DNA from: Lentisphaerota bacterium
GTDB lineage: Bacteria; Verrucomicrobiota; Kiritimatiellia; JAAZAB01
DNA length: 64,000 bases
Assembly: GCA_016188985.1 (NCBI GenBank)
Contig: JACPGM010000081.1
Location: 1-64,000, forward strand
Direction: 5' to 3'
Below are positions 13,377 through 48,519 of the stretch, piece by piece; position 1 is the stretch's first letter, and every line of letters begins with the position of its first letter. The position numbers were made by a program, and so were the translations under genes. Below the pieces are notes generated by a model. The model was not told the origin of the DNA, made no database searches, and saw only the letters and a list, made by a program, of their open reading frames with translations.

Positions 13377-13847
13377 ATGCAATTCGATGACGCCCAGAAA
13401 GATGCCGTTCGGCGCTGGGTAGCCGAAGGTTGCAGCCTGGCCGATATCCAGAAGCGCTTGAGTAACGAATTCAAACTCTCCGTAACCTTCCTGGACTTGC
13501 GCTTTATGATCCTGGATCTCGGCCTGAAGATTAAGGAACAGGCTAAGACAACCAGTCCAGGACTGGCGCTGGGCAACAATCCAACGGCACGGACGGCCCA
13601 GGCCGCGGAGGGTTTTGAACCGGAAACCGCCGGTGGCGTTTCCGTCACGCTCGACCGCGTCATGAAACCCGGCGCGGTGGTGAGCGGCACGGTTCGGTTC
13701 AGCGACGGTGTTTCGGCTTCCTGGCTGCTGGACCAGCTTGGCCGCCTGGCGCTGGACGCGCGCAAGCCGAATTACCGGCCCAGCCCGCAGGACCTGGAAG
13801 CCTTTCAGAGCGAGCTGCGCAACCTTCTGCAAAGCCGCGGATTCTGA
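13377..13847 (+). CDS. Conserved hypothetical protein
   Basis: 156-aa ORF: MQFDDAQKDAVRRWVAEGCSLADIQKRLSNEFKLSVTFLDLRFMILDLGLKIKEQ; upstream of the next convergent genes. Confidence 0.6.
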   Translation: MQFDDAQKDAVRRWVAEGCSLADIQKRLSNEFKLSVTFLDLRFMILDLGLKIKEQAKTTSPGLALGNNPTARTAQAAEGFEPETAGGVSVTLDRVMKPGAVVSGTVRFSDGVSASWLLDQLGRLALDARKPNYRPSPQDLEAFQSELRNLLQSRGF

Positions 13848-42858: not shown

Positions 42859-44253
42859 ATGAAGGTTCTTTTCGTTTATCCTGATATCGGCGTGCGCGGC
42901 GGCGCGCGCAGTTACCAGTTCGGCATCGGGCTCTTGAGCGCGTTGCTCAGGACGCGCGGCCACGCGACCAGTCTATACTACATGTTTGGGGATTATAACC
43001 CCGCGGCGCTCAAGCGCGCGGTCGCCATGTACCAGCCGGGCCTGATCGCGTTCTCGGCAGTCTCGCCGCAGTTTCGGTTCGTGAAACAGATTTTCAAGGA
43101 CTTGGCGCCTTTTCCCGCCTTTACCATTCTGGGCGGACACCACGCCACCTTGGCGCCGGAATGCCTGCAAACCATTGAAGGACTGGATGCAATCTGCATT
43201 GGCGAGGGGGAATATCCGCTTCTGGAACTGGTCGAGACCCTGGAGCGCGGCGGCGAAGCAAGCGCCATTCCCAACCTCTGGGTAAAAACCCGCAACCAAG
43301 GCATTGCCAAAAACGCGACCCGCCCTTTTACCGAAAACTTGGATACGTTGCCGTTTGTGGACCGCGAACTGTTTGATTACCAGGCAATCATTAATTCCGA
43401 TTTCCACACGGCCCAATTCATGTTTTCACGCGGCTGTCCCTACAATTGCACCTTCTGCAGCAACCATGCCCTGCGCGAGCGGCAGGATGGCAAATACGTC
43501 CGGTTCCGCGGCGTGCCGAGCTGCCTCGCTGAAATCCGGGAGGTGACCGGCCGCTACCGCATGCGCGCCCTCTATTTCAATGACGACTGCTTTACCACGC
43601 ACCGGAATTTTGTGGACGAATTCTGCACGCGCTATTCCGAGGAGTTCGCCTTGCCCTTCGCCATTAATGCCCGACCGGAGACGCTGAACGACGACATCTG
43701 CCGTGTGCTCAAAGCCGCCGGCTGCCAGCGCCTCAGTATCGGCATCGAAAGCGGCTCGGAGAGCTTCCGTCAAAAAGTGCTCGGCCGGCGTCAGTCAAAT
43801 GAGCGGATTGTCGCGGCCTTTGCCGCGGCCCGCCGCGCGGGAATCAAGACCAAATCATTTAACATCGTCGGCTTCCCTTACGAGACGCCGGCCATCTTCC
43901 AGGAAACCGTGGACCTCAATGAGCGCATCCAGCCCGACAGCGTCATCATCGGCATCTTTGAGCCCTACCCCGGCACGCGGCTGGCGGAGATATGTTTGCA
44001 AGAGGGTTTCCTTCCCAGCGACCAGCCGGATGCCTGGTTCCTGGGCCGGATGGATACGATCTTGAACATGCCGGCTTTCCCGCGCCGCGCAATTTTGCGC
44101 TGCTTCCGGAATTTTGCGTTTAATGTCTATAAAAAGTCGGCGCCCTTAAAGGCGTTTTTTTATAAAGCGTATTATTCCGCCGCCGGCGAGCGGCTGATCC
44201 GCCTGCTCGCCCCCGTTAAGGATCTCCTGCGCCGCCTGGTGATGGGCGTGTGA
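42859..44253 (+). CDS. B12-binding-domain radical SAM protein
   Basis: MFSRGCPYNCTFCSNHALRERQ; N-terminal cobalamin-binding-like domain; SIGIESGSESFRQKVLGR. Confidence 0.93.
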   Translation: MKVLFVYPDIGVRGGARSYQFGIGLLSALLRTRGHATSLYYMFGDYNPAALKRAVAMYQPGLIAFSAVSPQFRFVKQIFKDLAPFPAFTILGGHHATLAPECLQTIEGLDAICIGEGEYPLLELVETLERGGEASAIPNLWVKTRNQGIAKNATRPFTENLDTLPFVDRELFDYQAIINSDFHTAQFMFSRGCPYNCTFCSNHALRERQDGKYVRFRGVPSCLAEIREVTGRYRMRALYFNDDCFTTHRNFVDEFCTRYSEEFALPFAINARPETLNDDICRVLKAAGCQRLSIGIESGSESFRQKVLGRRQSNERIVAAFAAARRAGIKTKSFNIVGFPYETPAIFQETVDLNERIQPDSVIIGIFEPYPGTRLAEICLQEGFLPSDQPDAWFLGRMDTILNMPAFPRRAILRCFRNFAFNVYKKSAPLKAFFYKAYYSAAGERLIRLLAPVKDLLRRLVMGV

Positions 44254-44327
44254 GGCCGCAAACGGGCTTTGTCAAAACCCCTTTCGTCGAGCGGTATGCG
44301 GAAGCCGCTGGTTTGCCGACACATTTC

Positions 44328-44543
44328 TTATGCTGGCACAGGAGTCAAGCTGAAGACACGAGCCAAGTGGGATGCCCTTTGAATATCGCCGCTGCGTAAG
44401 GCTTCGCGGACATCATCCAATTTATAGGCATCATCCAATGACAAGTAGGGAGACCAGTCATTGTCCGTTTCGATCAATTCGACATCAACCTCGGCCACAT
44501 ACTGGCCTTCATGAATTAATTTTGTGTGGTGCCTTGTGTTCAT
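44328..44543 (-). CDS. Small protein, putative antitoxin partner of the DUF4258-like gene
   Basis: 71 aa MNTRHHTKLIHEGQYVAEVDVELIETDNDWSPYLSLDDAYKLDDVREALRSGDIQRASHLARVFSLTPV; 18 nt downstream of toxin-like gene. Confidence 0.6.
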   Translation of the reverse strand: MNTRHHTKLIHEGQYVAEVDVELIETDNDWSPYLSLDDAYKLDDVREALRSGDIQRASHLARVFSLTPVPA

Positions 44544-44561
44544 TTCTTTCTCCTCATAAAA

Positions 44562-44864
44562 TCACTTGTCCATCGTCTTGAATCCGGCCGGTAGGCTGTT
44601 ACAATCACGGCCGGAGATGTTTGTCCCCTCGGAATCCCCCCAGACCACGTGAATCGGGTTTCCATCGCGGTCCTGTTGCAGGACAAGCACACATGGCCCT
44701 TTCGGAAAGTCCGGATAATCCTCCACTAATCTGCCGTTGGGCACATCTGCCACAATATCCCTGACAAACAGACCTTCTTCGGCTATTCCATCATAGCCGT
44801 GTTCCGATATTCTTATTTTTCCTCTCTGAGCCAGTTGAACGATCCGGCGTAATGTATCACTCAT
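44562..44864 (-). CDS. DUF4258 (RelE-fold/BrnT-like) putative toxin
   Basis: GKIRISEHGYDGIAEEGLFVRDIVADVPNGRLVEDYPDFPKGPCVLVLQQDRDGNPIHVVWG. Confidence 0.7.
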   Translation of the reverse strand: MSDTLRRIVQLAQRGKIRISEHGYDGIAEEGLFVRDIVADVPNGRLVEDYPDFPKGPCVLVLQQDRDGNPIHVVWGDSEGTNISGRDCNSLPAGFKTMDK

Positions 44865-44910
44865 GCCATAATCATAACGTAACAAATATGATTGGCAAAT
44901 CGTTTCTTAT

Positions 44911-44987
44911 GGCCAACACTACTTCTGAGGCGTTCCGAGACCCGTGTCCGCACGGGGCTTGGAATTGCCTCCGGAAGTTTGTTGGGC
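44911..44987 (-). other. attC-like integron recombination site (best example, 77 nt)
   Basis: Minus strand: GCCCAAC-AAACTTCCGGAGGCAATTCCAAGCCCCGTG-CGGA-CACGGGTCTCGGAACGCCTCAGAAGTAGT-GTTGGCC; R'' RYYYAAC exact, R' GTTGGCC, long imperfect stem with bulges; stop codon of the cassette gene lies inside. Confidence 0.75.
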
Positions 44988-45452
44988 TTCGCTTGTACAT
45001 CTGAAAACGTATGTACAGTGGAGATTTGTGCCACCGTCCAGAAAGTACACAGTGACATACTCAGGCGCGTAGTCTCCGGGCTTTGGCTGAAATGGTTGTT
45101 TGTGAAATCCGATGGGTTTGATGACTTCGCCAGATGGAGAGCGCATCTCCGATTTAATGTCTGACGGCAAACCGTTTGTCCAATTGGCAGATTGAAATGC
45201 CTTCTGCGCATACAGTCTCAGCGACGCTGAATTGGTTTTGACGTTTGGCTTGAGTTGATATGTCACATAGACATCACAATGCGAACCGTGAACTGCGACG
45301 GCGCCAATGTGTCGACTGTACATCGAAAGGTCTGGCTCACACTGCCGGAGCAGAGCTTCCTCCTTGATAAAGCGTGCGTTGTCTGGTTCTGTGGCCAAAG
45401 ACACTGTAAGAACAACTGTCCACAACAACAGTACTGTCGTTATCGTTCTCAT
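44919..45452 (-). CDS. Secreted hypothetical protein (cassette gene)
   Basis: MRTITTVLLLWTVVLTVSLATEPDNARFIKEEALLRQCEPDLSMYSRHIGAVAVHGSHCDVYVTYQL. Confidence 0.65.
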   Translation of the reverse strand: MRTITTVLLLWTVVLTVSLATEPDNARFIKEEALLRQCEPDLSMYSRHIGAVAVHGSHCDVYVTYQLKPNVKTNSASLRLYAQKAFQSANWTNGLPSDIKSEMRSPSGEVIKPIGFHKQPFQPKPGDYAPEYVTVYFLDGGTNLHCTYVFRCTSEAQQTSGGNSKPRADTGLGTPQK

Positions 45453-45458
45453 CTTCAA

Positions 45459-45519
45459 ACCCAACGGCGAACTGAGCGCGCGCCGCCTAAGACGGCGCGC
45501 TTGGGTGACGGGCTTAGGC
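45459..45519 (-). other. attC-like site (61 nt, R'' degenerate)
   Basis: Minus strand: GCCTAAGCCCGTCACCCAAGCGCGCCGTCTTAGGCGGCGCGCGCTCAGTTCGCCGTTGGGT; R' GTTGGGT fits GTTRRRY. Confidence 0.55.
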
Positions 45520-45653
45520 GGCTTCCGCCAAAGTTATAGGCGGATGCTACTCTGCGAAGTGGCGAAGCCCCTTCGCTATGACCTTCCTTCGCCCACCGAA
45601 GCGAGGGCTTCGCGAAGGCGGGAGCACGAGTCCGCCTCCGGCATGAAAGCGCC
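45459..45653. repeat. ~190-bp gene-less segment duplicated at 47287-47482, carrying an R1 repeat
   Basis: AACGGCGAACTGAGCGCGCGCCGCCTAAGACGGCGCGCTTG...CACGAGTCCGCCTCCGGCATGAAAGCGCCG in both. Confidence 0.95.
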
Positions 45654-45706
45654 GTTCCCGGCACGCCGCGGGTCAACGGTACGGTGCGACCTCTGGTTCG
45701 ACCTTT

Positions 45707-46192
45707 TTATTTCTTCTTCTGTTGTAATTCTGTTCGGAGTATACGCATGTATTCTTCGTGGGTGTATGTGACCGTCACAGGTTTGCCCTTGTCATCAAGT
45801 CTCCATTCTGAATAGTTTTCCTGAATCGGGCGCATGCCCATCGGCCCTTGAAAGAGCCAATATTCTTTATTCTTATAAGGATCGTGCAGAAAGATAAGAA
45901 AATCTTTTCCAACTAAATCTGCCAATGTCTCTACTTCTAGATGCGCATACATATGGGAACGAAAATCTACCGTAGTTTCACCCTCCCCCTTGAAAAGTTC
46001 TTTAATCTTCGCTTTTATCACACAATATGACATGGGATTAGCGGTATCAGACGGCTTTACAACCTGTGCAACAGTGATTCTCGCAATGACACACGCTCGC
46101 TCCAACTTTTCAGATAGAGTGAACAAGACTGAGGTAGCATGCGTAGTAAATGGGAAAACTAATAATGAAAGTATAAGTATGTTTCTTTTCAT
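45707..46192 (-). CDS. Secreted hypothetical protein (cassette gene)
   Basis: MKRNILILSLLVFPFTTHATSVLFTLSEKLERACVIARITVAQVVKPSDTANPMSYCVIKAKIKELFKGE. Confidence 0.65.
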   Translation of the reverse strand: MKRNILILSLLVFPFTTHATSVLFTLSEKLERACVIARITVAQVVKPSDTANPMSYCVIKAKIKELFKGEGETTVDFRSHMYAHLEVETLADLVGKDFLIFLHDPYKNKEYWLFQGPMGMRPIQENYSEWRLDDKGKPVTVTYTHEEYMRILRTELQQKKK

Positions 46193-46200
46193 GTCTTTGG

Positions 46201-46267
46201 GTCTAACGGCATGAGTCACGGTTTTGGCGCGATAGCGACAAATACCGTGCGCTCATTTGTGCGCAAC
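46201..46267 (-). other. attC-like site (~67 nt)
   Basis: Minus strand ends ...GCCAAAACCGTGACTCATGCC-GTTAGAC (R' exact GTTRRRY); stem GAGcgCACGGTaTTTGtcGC / GCgcCAAAaCCGTGaCTC; R'' degenerate. Confidence 0.6.
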
Positions 46268-46306
46268 TCTTCCATACTTCAACAATTGTGGAAATGAGGA
46301 AGACAA

Positions 46307-46624
46307 TCACGCGCGCTTCGCGCGCACGCTCTCCACCCATTCCTCAACCGTGATGAGAATTCTCAGTACCTTGCGATCCTTTATCCAATACTCTTTGGTC
46401 CTACCCTTGGTCTCGTATCGAATCACATCCATCTGCCGAAGATGACGCAAGGTCATGGAAATCGTCGTCAGGGGGATATGCAAGGCAGTGCTCAGATCGC
46501 CGGGGGTCTTGCGGCTTGTGTCCAGGCAGCGCAGGATGAGATAGGCCGTCGGATTCCCCAGAACTCGACAACACCGTGAAGCCCGGTACATCGTCTCCGG
46601 CATATTCTGTTTCGTTATTCCCAT
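46307..46624 (-). CDS. ArsR-like winged-helix transcriptional regulator
   Basis: ASRCCRVLGNPTAYLILRCLDTSRKTPGDLSTALHIPLTTISMTLRHLRQMDVIRYETKGRTKEYWIKD. Confidence 0.8.
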   Translation of the reverse strand: MGITKQNMPETMYRASRCCRVLGNPTAYLILRCLDTSRKTPGDLSTALHIPLTTISMTLRHLRQMDVIRYETKGRTKEYWIKDRKVLRILITVEEWVESVRAKRA

Positions 46625-46645
46625 AACCCCCCGCCACCTCCACTA

Positions 46646-46677
46646 TTCCACACTTCAACAATTGTGGAAGTGTGGAA
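46646..46677. promoter_or_regulatory. 32-bp palindromic putative operator upstream of the ArsR-like gene; diverged second copy at 46270-46301
   Basis: TTCCACACTTCAACAATTGTGGAAGTGTGGAA (one mismatched pair). Confidence 0.6.
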
Positions 46678-46699
46678 GGTTCTTGTCAAGTCAGCCTAT

Positions 46700-46755
46700 T
46701 GCGAACGATTGAGCTAAAGCGCGGTTCACCGCGCGCCTTCAGCTTCTTGTTCGGT
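46700..46755 (-). other. attC-like site (56 nt)
   Basis: Minus strand: ACCGAAC-AAGAAGCTGAAGGCGCGCGG-TGAA-CCGCGCTTTAGCTCAATC-GTTCGCA; CGAAC/GTTCG pair, bulged stem; cassette stop codon inside. Confidence 0.65.
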
Positions 46756-47274
46756 AATCTCTTGTTTTCTGATTGCCCTTGGCAGAGACACCGCCATCAA
46801 GCTGCCGACTGTGAAAAAGAGCAATCCAAATCCCGGAAGGAACCATGATTGTCCTTTCAGTCCGGGCTCTAACAAACACTCCTCCGGGTTGCCTGGCAGG
46901 TAATACACGGTAACGCTCTTGCCTTTGGGATATCGGTTTACGATGCGCCGCGCATGCGACGGATTGCTGGAGCCATAGTCTCCGTAGGCAACACGATTAC
47001 CGCTGAAAGTAGTGTCGTTGACACTGAAGTCATACATGACTTCGGCGTGATAGGTGCCACTCCCCTCATCACTATCCTGATACTCTACTGAAGATGCCAC
47101 AACTCTGCCTTGAGTAGCGGGCCAATCCACACTGGCCTTAGCTCGGATGAGGCCACGAACACCAAAGAAGGCAACGCTTGCGCCAACCACGACAAAGATG
47201 AGTGGAAAAATCCGTGAGAAGAAGAATCTCATTCCCGGGGACATTTGCTTTGACGATGATGAAGATATTCTCAT
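46726..47274 (-). CDS. DUF3592 domain membrane protein (cassette gene)
   Basis: GRVVASSVEYQDSDEGSGTYHAEVMYDFSVNDTTFSGNRVAYGD...RYPKGKSVTVYYLPGNPEECLLEPG. Confidence 0.8.
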   Translation of the reverse strand: MRISSSSSKQMSPGMRFFFSRIFPLIFVVVGASVAFFGVRGLIRAKASVDWPATQGRVVASSVEYQDSDEGSGTYHAEVMYDFSVNDTTFSGNRVAYGDYGSSNPSHARRIVNRYPKGKSVTVYYLPGNPEECLLEPGLKGQSWFLPGFGLLFFTVGSLMAVSLPRAIRKQEITEQEAEGAR

Positions 47275-47286
47275 TATTCTCCTTTC

Positions 47287-47347
47287 ACGGAACGGCGAAC
47301 TGAGCGCGCGCCGCCTAAGACGGCGCGCTTGCACGACTTGCTTAGGC
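47287..47347 (-). other. attC-like site, duplicate of 45459-45519 with different R'
   Basis: Minus strand: GCCTAAGCAAGTCGTGCAAGCGCGCCGTCTTAGGCGGCGCGCGCTCAGTTCGCCGTTCCGT; homology between the two copies breaks right after GTT. Confidence 0.5.
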
Positions 47348-47489
47348 GGCTTCCGCCAAAGTTATAGGCGGATGCTACTCTGCGAAGTGGCGAAGCCCCT
47401 TCGCTATGACCTTCCTTCGCCCACCGAAGCGAGGGCTTCGCGAAGGCGGGAGCACGAGTCCGCCTCCGGCATGAAAGCGCCGGGCGTGT

Positions 47490-47549
47490 CGGAAACGTGA
47501 CGGTTCAGCTACCGAGCGGGGCGAGGTAGGCTGAAACCGGTGGTTAGGC
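47490..47549 (-). other. attC-like site (60 nt) after BrnA-like gene
   Basis: Minus strand: GCCTAAC-CACC-GGTTTCAGCCTACC-TCGCCCCGCTC-GGTAGCTGAACC-GTCAC-GTTTCCG; R'' exact, stem with extrahelical bases, R' degenerate after GTT. Confidence 0.6.
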
Positions 47550-47828
47550 ATTTCTTCTTTCTCTCAGCACGCCGCGAAGATATTTATGCAAGATGCTCGA
47601 AATCAGCGTTTGATAGGGCAGGCCCTCCTCGATCGCCTTGGTTTGGATGCCAACCAGATCGCGTTCCGCCAAGCGGATGTTTATCCGCTTGTTTTTCTGG
47701 AGAGTATTACGGGAATACTGCTGCAATTTGGCGATTTCCGACCTTCCGTTTCTTGCCGGACGCCATTCGTTACGCTCGTATGACGCCAGTATGTCTCTTT
47801 CTTCCGAATCCATTGTCTGCTTTTTCAT
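47544..47828 (-). CDS. BrnA/CopG-type antitoxin
   Basis: KNKRINIRLAERDLVGIQTKAIEEGLPYQTLISSILHKYLRG. Confidence 0.8.
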   Translation of the reverse strand: MKKQTMDSEERDILASYERNEWRPARNGRSEIAKLQQYSRNTLQKNKRINIRLAERDLVGIQTKAIEEGLPYQTLISSILHKYLRGVLRERRNA

Positions 47829-48103
47829 TTTCCCCTCCTCAAATATTTCTTCGTCGCTTTTCGGCTCGGAATAATTGTTTTCAGAAAAACACCTTCTTCA
47901 TCGTCCACATAAGGGACGAGGCAGGCGTATTCATCTATTTCGACTATCGCCATCTTTTGTCTGGGATATTTTCTTTGGTCAGGGTGATCCATAACTTCCA
48001 AGACTTGCCCTTGCTCGAACAGAACGGCGACTTGTTCAAATCCCACTCCGCGATTCTGTTTTAACCATTCATTTTTCCGTTCATCCCACCGGATGTTTTT
48101 CAT
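47825..48103 (-). CDS. BrnT-like toxin
   Basis: MKNIRWDERKNEWLKQNRGVGFEQVAVLFEQGQVLEVMDHPDQRKYPRQKMAIVEIDEYACLVPYVDDEEGVFLKTIIPSRKATKKYLRRGK; overlaps the antitoxin start. Confidence 0.8.
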   Translation of the reverse strand: MKNIRWDERKNEWLKQNRGVGFEQVAVLFEQGQVLEVMDHPDQRKYPRQKMAIVEIDEYACLVPYVDDEEGVFLKTIIPSRKATKKYLRRGK

Positions 48104-48133
48104 AAGGACAATATACGGCATAGTATGCCGTTT

Positions 48134-48189
48134 GTCAACACATCGGCTTCATTCGTCTTCACTTATTTTCTGCCGAACATGTGTTAGAC
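48134..48189 (-). other. attC-like hairpin upstream of the BrnT/BrnA cassette (56 nt)
   Basis: Minus strand: GTCTAAC-ACATgttCGGC-...-GCCGATGT-GTTGAC; R'' exact. Confidence 0.45.
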
Positions 48190-48191
48190 GT

Positions 48192-48217
48192 AATTATCAT
48201 ATTGCAATATGATAATT
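48192..48217. repeat. 26-bp perfect AT-rich palindrome AATTATCATATTGCAATATGATAATT
   Basis: Direct reading; 2 nt from the GTTAGAC box. Confidence 0.9.
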
Positions 48218-48519
48218 CTAGATAGTATAAACAATGGGCAGAAACAATAATTGCCTTTTTTAAAATCGTATGTCTGGTTTTGATGAAGGTCAACGATAAA
48301 ACAACGGAAAATTTCTGGCAGGCCTGCCAATCCTGCGTGAAAACGCAACGCGTCACCACCGCTCATGCTCTTATAAAGCTGTGAAACAATAGAAAATCAT
48401 CGCGCCGGCGGGGCGGCGCTCCTACAAAAACCCATGATAGACGGGAAAATGTAGGAACCGAGCCCCACCTCGGCGATCTTCGGCAATTTTTTCACGCGTT
48501 CTCAGTAAGAATACGGCTC

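Follow-up and report, generated by a model that had tools for sequence, protein, structure and literature searches.

An attC site in a chromosomal integron array headed by an integrase stub

The hairpin at positions 44911-44987 is very probably an attC site that closes gene cassette c5 at its 3' end, within a chromosomal integron array on the minus strand whose head is an attI-like region at 48172-48240 of the window (the whole 64,000-nucleotide stretch of DNA that was analysed, from a Lentisphaerota bacterium). At the head of the array stand an attI-like region and an integrase stub, and the focal site therefore belongs to an integron that has lost its integrase. Our observations cover the anatomy of the attC, its place in an array, the homology of the attI-like region, the stub, and an integrase that is intact on another contig of the genome. 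The focal attC is itself ordinary, and more is to be learned from the integrase-less integron that surrounds it.

An earlier note on this DNA had described the hairpin as a textbook-like attC with extrahelical bases. Its sequence and coordinates are correct and the inverted repeat is real, with the following parts:

44911-44987, minus strand: attC of cassette c5 (from its folds, the shuffled-window null and rank 1 in the window with a covariance model)
44981-44987, minus strand (gene strand): R'' box, GCCCAAC
44911-44917, minus strand (gene strand): R' box, GTTGGCC
44965: bulged T in the plus-strand fold
44972-44973: CG of a 1x2 loop in the plus-strand fold
44919-44920 against 44979: spacer in the plus-strand fold

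The R''/R' pair contains the AAC/GTT core and is paired at 6 of 7 positions, with one mismatch. The attC consensus is RYYYAAC for R'' and GTTRRRY for R'; GCCCAAC matches the former, and GTTGGCC departs from the latter at one base. Because the array has its genes on the minus strand, that strand is the top strand of the site and the plus strand the bottom one. The earlier note had read the site on the minus strand; recombination would be expected on the plus strand. The bottom-strand fold runs from the R stem through a central spacer (2 versus 1 bases unpaired) to a 5-bp L stem and a 1x2 loop (T versus CG); 6 bp further on come a bulged T and the terminal hairpin. Two net extrahelical bases result, one in the T/CG loop and one the bulged T, both on the R''-L'' arm, and the bulged T sits 8 nt from the G of the CG loop. 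The claim that unpaired bases are concentrated on one arm holds for this net excess and only slightly for the raw count, which is 6 versus 5 in the bottom-strand fold. Bouvier et al. (2009; PMC2727003), in the part of their paper available to us, assign two or three extrahelical bases to the R''-L'' arm, where a conserved G in L'' has a T 6-8 nt away, a pattern that the focal site fits with its G and its T at 8 nt on that arm. The same part of that paper gives G as the base following AAC in the bottom-strand R' box of most attC sites, whereas the focal site carries an A. "Textbook-like" is thus not fully apt, given the one departure from consensus in the R' box and the A after AAC. The TAG stop codon of the c5 gene (44919-44921, minus strand) lies within the R'-L' arm, as the earlier note had claimed. 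In established integron biology, the plus (bottom) strand of such a site would fold into a hairpin when single-stranded, and two integrase monomers would bind its R and L boxes; the extrahelical bases would set the polarity of recombination, and a cut at G^TT in R' would join cassettes.

Folded separately, each strand gave a strong hairpin; a symmetric stem devoid of extrahelical bases, which would have refuted the earlier note, was not the outcome. With flanks and DNA parameters, the folding energy was -22.1 kcal/mol for the minus strand (z -5.0) and -27.9 kcal/mol for the plus strand (z -6.5), values equalled by none of 200 shuffles in either case. A strict scan of the 64-kb window for single hairpins closed by AAC/GTT R boxes placed the focal hairpin first on both strands, at -27.0 versus -13.5 for the next on the plus strand (15 candidates) and at -22.1 versus -15.3 on the minus strand (16 candidates). 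The same scan found 2 equally good sites in 167 shuffled 64-kb windows, or about one per 80 windows with the context uncounted, and a looser one, in which candidates were ordered by energy per base, found 8 in 150. This chance rate and the location of so strong a hairpin where a gene ends would be compatible with a transcription terminator or other RNA hairpin that ends the c5 gene and resembles an attC by accident. However, the stop codon is inside the stem, the gene strand has no run of T after the hairpin, an Rfam search of the hairpin matched no family, and a model built from integrase-linked attC sites matches on one strand; we regard such a hairpin as highly improbable. That the site belongs to a REP- or MITE-like family of dispersed repeats is, in our judgement, slightly less credible still: many such repeats are present in the genome, one of them inside a neighbouring 215-nt repeat, but an 88-base query containing the focal hairpin recovered only itself from its own genome at E up to 10. 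A terminator, a REP- or MITE-like element and a chance hairpin were accordingly all rejected as the identity of the focal site.

The covariance model was trained on 8 attC sites from contig C80 of the same genome and from two other genomes, G002 and G021, with the focal site and the window left out. From a starting alignment of 12 attC sites we dropped those at L005 6395, 5832 and 522, L163 11984 and L162 6896 and added L005 5510-5573, and this one choice of rows was used throughout. The alignment has 17 predicted pairs, 11 of which show compensatory change. In a search of the window the focal site ranked first of 30 matches, on the plus strand, with 22.7 bits and an E-value of 5.6e-4, the E-values of this model being rough; the opposite strand of the site gave no match. 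Three further matches within the array, also on the plus strand, were at 46700-46755 (16.6 bits, E 0.025), 46205-46265 (14.7 bits, E 0.08) and 44257-44317 (9.5 bits, E 2.0). As a match of 15.1 bits (13571-13644) lies outside the array, these weaker sites are not distinguished by score alone. In a search of the whole genome, in which 150 of 2522 candidates were scored, the focal site was not among the 27 sites listed. A single match of 25.3 bits was seen at another locus (L165), while loci L006, L161, L167 and L168 contributed nothing to the analysis. Contig C151 of the same genome carries 8 matches on one strand by its end (L173 5614-13487), 5 of them with at least 24 bits; this group is perhaps a further array, possibly an extension of the C80 integron. 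For the focal site, the R, spacer, L and terminal-hairpin layout, the top model match in the window, the position at the 3' end of a gene and the attI-like region heading the array together uphold its identification as an attC. Against it stand the one off-consensus base of R' and the weakness or degeneracy of the remaining attC sites in the array.

The genes of the array are all on the minus strand and lead away from the attI-like region. From that end, the cassettes contain:

47825-48121, minus strand: BrnT-type toxin gene of c1 (BrnT above cut-off)
47544-47828, minus strand: CopG-like antitoxin gene of c1 (CopG_antitoxin, below cut-off)
47543-47549, minus strand: candidate R'' GCCTAAC of the c1 attC, 6 of 7 positions paired with the start GTTCGGC at attI
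46726-47268, minus strand: c2 gene, DUF3592 protein (67 bits, above cut-off, for the longer reading 46726-47334)
46700-46755, minus strand: attC of c2 (R' GTTCGCA, 46700-46706), matched on the plus strand as above; weak fold, z -1.75
46307-46624, minus strand: c3 gene, ArsR-type helix-turn-helix regulator (HTH_5 at cut-off, 22 bits; HTH_metalloreg below cut-off)
46201-46265, minus strand: attC of c3 (R' GTTAGAC, 46201-46207), matched on the plus strand as above
45459-46206, minus strand: cassette c4, including a copy of a 192-nt repeat core that ends at the crossover GTT
45707-46219, minus strand: c4 gene, 170 aa from GTG
45696-45702, minus strand: candidate R'' GTCGAAC of c4
44917-45464, minus strand: cassette c5, bounds inferred from G^TTGGGT (GTTGGGT at 45459-45465) to G^TTGGCC
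44919-45452, minus strand: c5 gene, 177 aa from ATG (181 aa from TTG at 45464), with a hydrophobic N-terminus and its TAG stop inside the attC
44311-44916, minus strand: cassette c6; the attC beyond it is degenerate
44562-44885, minus strand: DUF4258 gene of c6
44328-44543, minus strand: second gene of c6, 71 aa
44311-44317, minus strand: candidate R'' GGCAAAC of c6
44257-44317, minus strand: possible degenerate attC of c6 at the array end, the weak plus-strand match above

The c3 site, taken as 46201-46271, folds with a T-against-CG loop, 6 bp and a bulged T like the focal site (z -2.96), and the region 44257-44317 folds no better than its shuffles. Similar inverted repeats at 46266-46302 and 46642-46678 (core CTTCAACAATTGTGGAA) flank the ArsR-type gene and are possible operators. 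A 192-nt stretch occurs twice in the array with 97% identity (45463-45654 and 47291-47482); only one of its two ends coincides exactly with the crossover GTT, and parts of the stretch are repeated across the genome. It may be a cassette without an open reading frame, or two cassettes may each carry it as a repeat element. A plain attC made of the whole 215-nt repeat was rejected, since only one end of the 192-nt core is at the crossover GTT and part of the repeat is a dispersed element.

The region 44250-48500 was matched in 15 of 58 genomes (its own included), in many only by pieces of dispersed repeats. Family searches with the c5 protein matched no family, and no relative outside its own genome was found in 332 genomes of the class, an absence that is usual for cassette genes. 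The junction of c5 was presumably made by recombination; no relative with c5 missing or relocated, which would show the crossover as an empty site, was found among the genomes searched. For c6, a homologue in G021 is a cassette between attC sites (L162 6234-6294 and 6896-6954). The c6 region is also 82% identical to a stretch of contig C36 in a further genome, G008 (L131 1501-2106), where the model search gave no attC adjoining the copy. The gene pair in that copy lies outside any recognisable array, between genes that by eye resemble housekeeping genes.

The head of the array comprises:

48172-48240, plus strand: attI-like region (similarity to contigs C105 and C80, a six-locus alignment and a palindrome)
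48172-48178, minus strand: crossover candidate GTTCGGC
48283-48384, plus strand: integron integrase stub of 33 codons, the first 29 of which match the N-terminal end of the C80 integrase

Positions 48165-48365 are similar to C105:1107-1255 (73%, E 1.8e-16) and to C80:7387-7440 (76%, E 5e-4) of the same genome. In an alignment of six loci (the window, C105, C80, G002:C34, G008:C120 and G008:C115) an attI-like region is followed by the start of intI, and on this alignment the region in the window is homologous to those of three intact integrons (C80, G002:C34 and G008:C120). The stub aligned with the C80 integrase N-terminus with a score of 67, which none of 5000 shuffles equalled and which only 1 of 11622 pieces of the window, the stub itself, attained. 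A search of the genome with TIGR02249 gave no match on the array's own contig (C139), where there is only the stub beside the array. Since its own integrase is this stub, the array would be frozen in cis, and only the C80 integrase acting in trans could still move it, if at all.

The genome (3.09 Mb in 173 contigs, 86% complete) contains one integron integrase above the family cut-off, on C80, with 457 bits; such integrases were found in 25 of 58 genomes and are intact also at G002:C34 and G008:C120 (the latter with attI and integrase from L164). The C80 protein has 442 residues, its integron-integrase family match begins at residue 129, an alignment with the solved integron integrase 2a3v covers residues 136-440, and its catalytic motifs are present by eye. 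In its long N-terminus it may resemble clade 15 of the available part of Nemergut et al. (2008; PMC2426708), whose integrases have about 120 extra N-terminal residues. The attC sites of this integron are left of the integrase, on the minus strand. The focal site is like them in its R and L stems and spacer and in carrying a 1x2 loop and one bulged base on the R''-L'' arm, and shares with them a GAGGC...GCCTCCG segment; it is unlike them in its R boxes, GCCCAAC/GTTGGCC rather than the GCGAAC/GTTCGC type, and in its one R''/R' mismatch.

By the mechanism of recombination, the R'' box of a cassette should complement the start of the same cassette. On C80 this pairing is exact in three of four cassettes (starts 7391, 7079 and 6401; R'' 7138, 6456 and 5890), and the fourth cassette is off by a single mismatch. 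Each of c1, c4, c5 and c6 in the window departs from exact pairing once; for c5, GCCCAAC against GTTGGGT, this is a G-T pair beside 6 of 7 positions paired. The R'' boxes of c1, c4 and c6 weigh less than that of c5, because they were chosen by eye near gene ends. As a pattern of sequence, the departures would fit an array that has drifted since recombination ceased. It is conceivable instead that the array is alive as a satellite of C80, whose integrase would act in trans on the focal attC and the attI of the window. An intact integrase is present, the attI core is similar on both contigs, the focal attC retains R, L and extrahelical bases, and trans mobilisation of integrase-less arrays is stated in the available part of one report (PMC12444791). 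However, all four R''/start pairs tested in the window are imperfect by one position, against three of four exact on C80, and the remaining attC sites of the array are weak; both suggest decay, and we consider continued service in trans unlikely.

A second integrase-less integron in the same genome, at C105 (L160 1-1300), has an attI-like region and, by eye, a stub of about 9 codons. It also has, with gene names assigned by eye, an aspartyl-protease-like gene, an attC-like site and a ribbon-helix-helix/RelE-like pair, and a strong hairpin (z -6.57) lies at the contig end. The third stub locus, G008:C115 (L166 5085-5200), is in a relative from another genus of the family; it too has an attI-like region, and its stub is of about 8 codons by eye. 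A perfect 26-bp palindrome at 48192-48217, between attI and the stub in the window, is kept at all three stub loci and is a possible binding site for a regulator or the integrase. Its pattern was found only at these three loci, in 2 of 345 genomes of the class (G000, the genome under study, and G008). With two stub loci in this genome and one in another genus as its basis, the idea that attI-bearing integrons with stubs of about 8 to 29 codons and an attI with the ATTATNATRTTGCAAYATNATAAT palindrome form a recurring type, satellites on which the one intact integrase of the genome would act in trans, is at present speculative and, to us, rather improbable.

Clusters of attC sites that lack an integrase are well documented, as are intI pseudogenes, in the available parts of several reports (PMC9024848; Nemergut et al. 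2008, PMC2426708; PMC12444791; and, for Treponema, PMC3607928). In the available part of PMC9024848, a CALIN is a set of at least two attC sites without an integrase (the default of IntegronFinder 2). The array in the window is like a CALIN in having attC-bearing cassettes without a working integrase in cis, and unlike one in keeping an attI-like region and the first integrase codons and in having only one strong attC; measured against that count, it has one strong site and two weak ones (E 0.025 and 0.08, both rough model E-values). It also resembles the intI pseudogenes and pseudo-integrons of PMC2426708 and of Xanthomonas (PMC12444791), as far as the available parts describe them, in that the integrase is inactivated and the cassette array remains; it differs in that nearly the whole gene is lost, with 29 recognisable codons left. 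The same parts of these two reports indicate that a working and a broken integrase can coexist in one genome. We found no literature on integrons or attC sites under the name Kiritimatiell- and, within the partial coverage of the literature, no description of a genome of this kind in which attI-plus-stub loci accompany an intact integron.

In summary, this genome combines an intact integron with two others that lack an integrase and have related attI sites. Integrase loss, the decay of attC sites and a possible action in trans can therefore be compared inside a single cell, and these loci provide material for asking how integrons die. Should the stub loci still undergo recombination in trans, several arrays would draw on one integrase.
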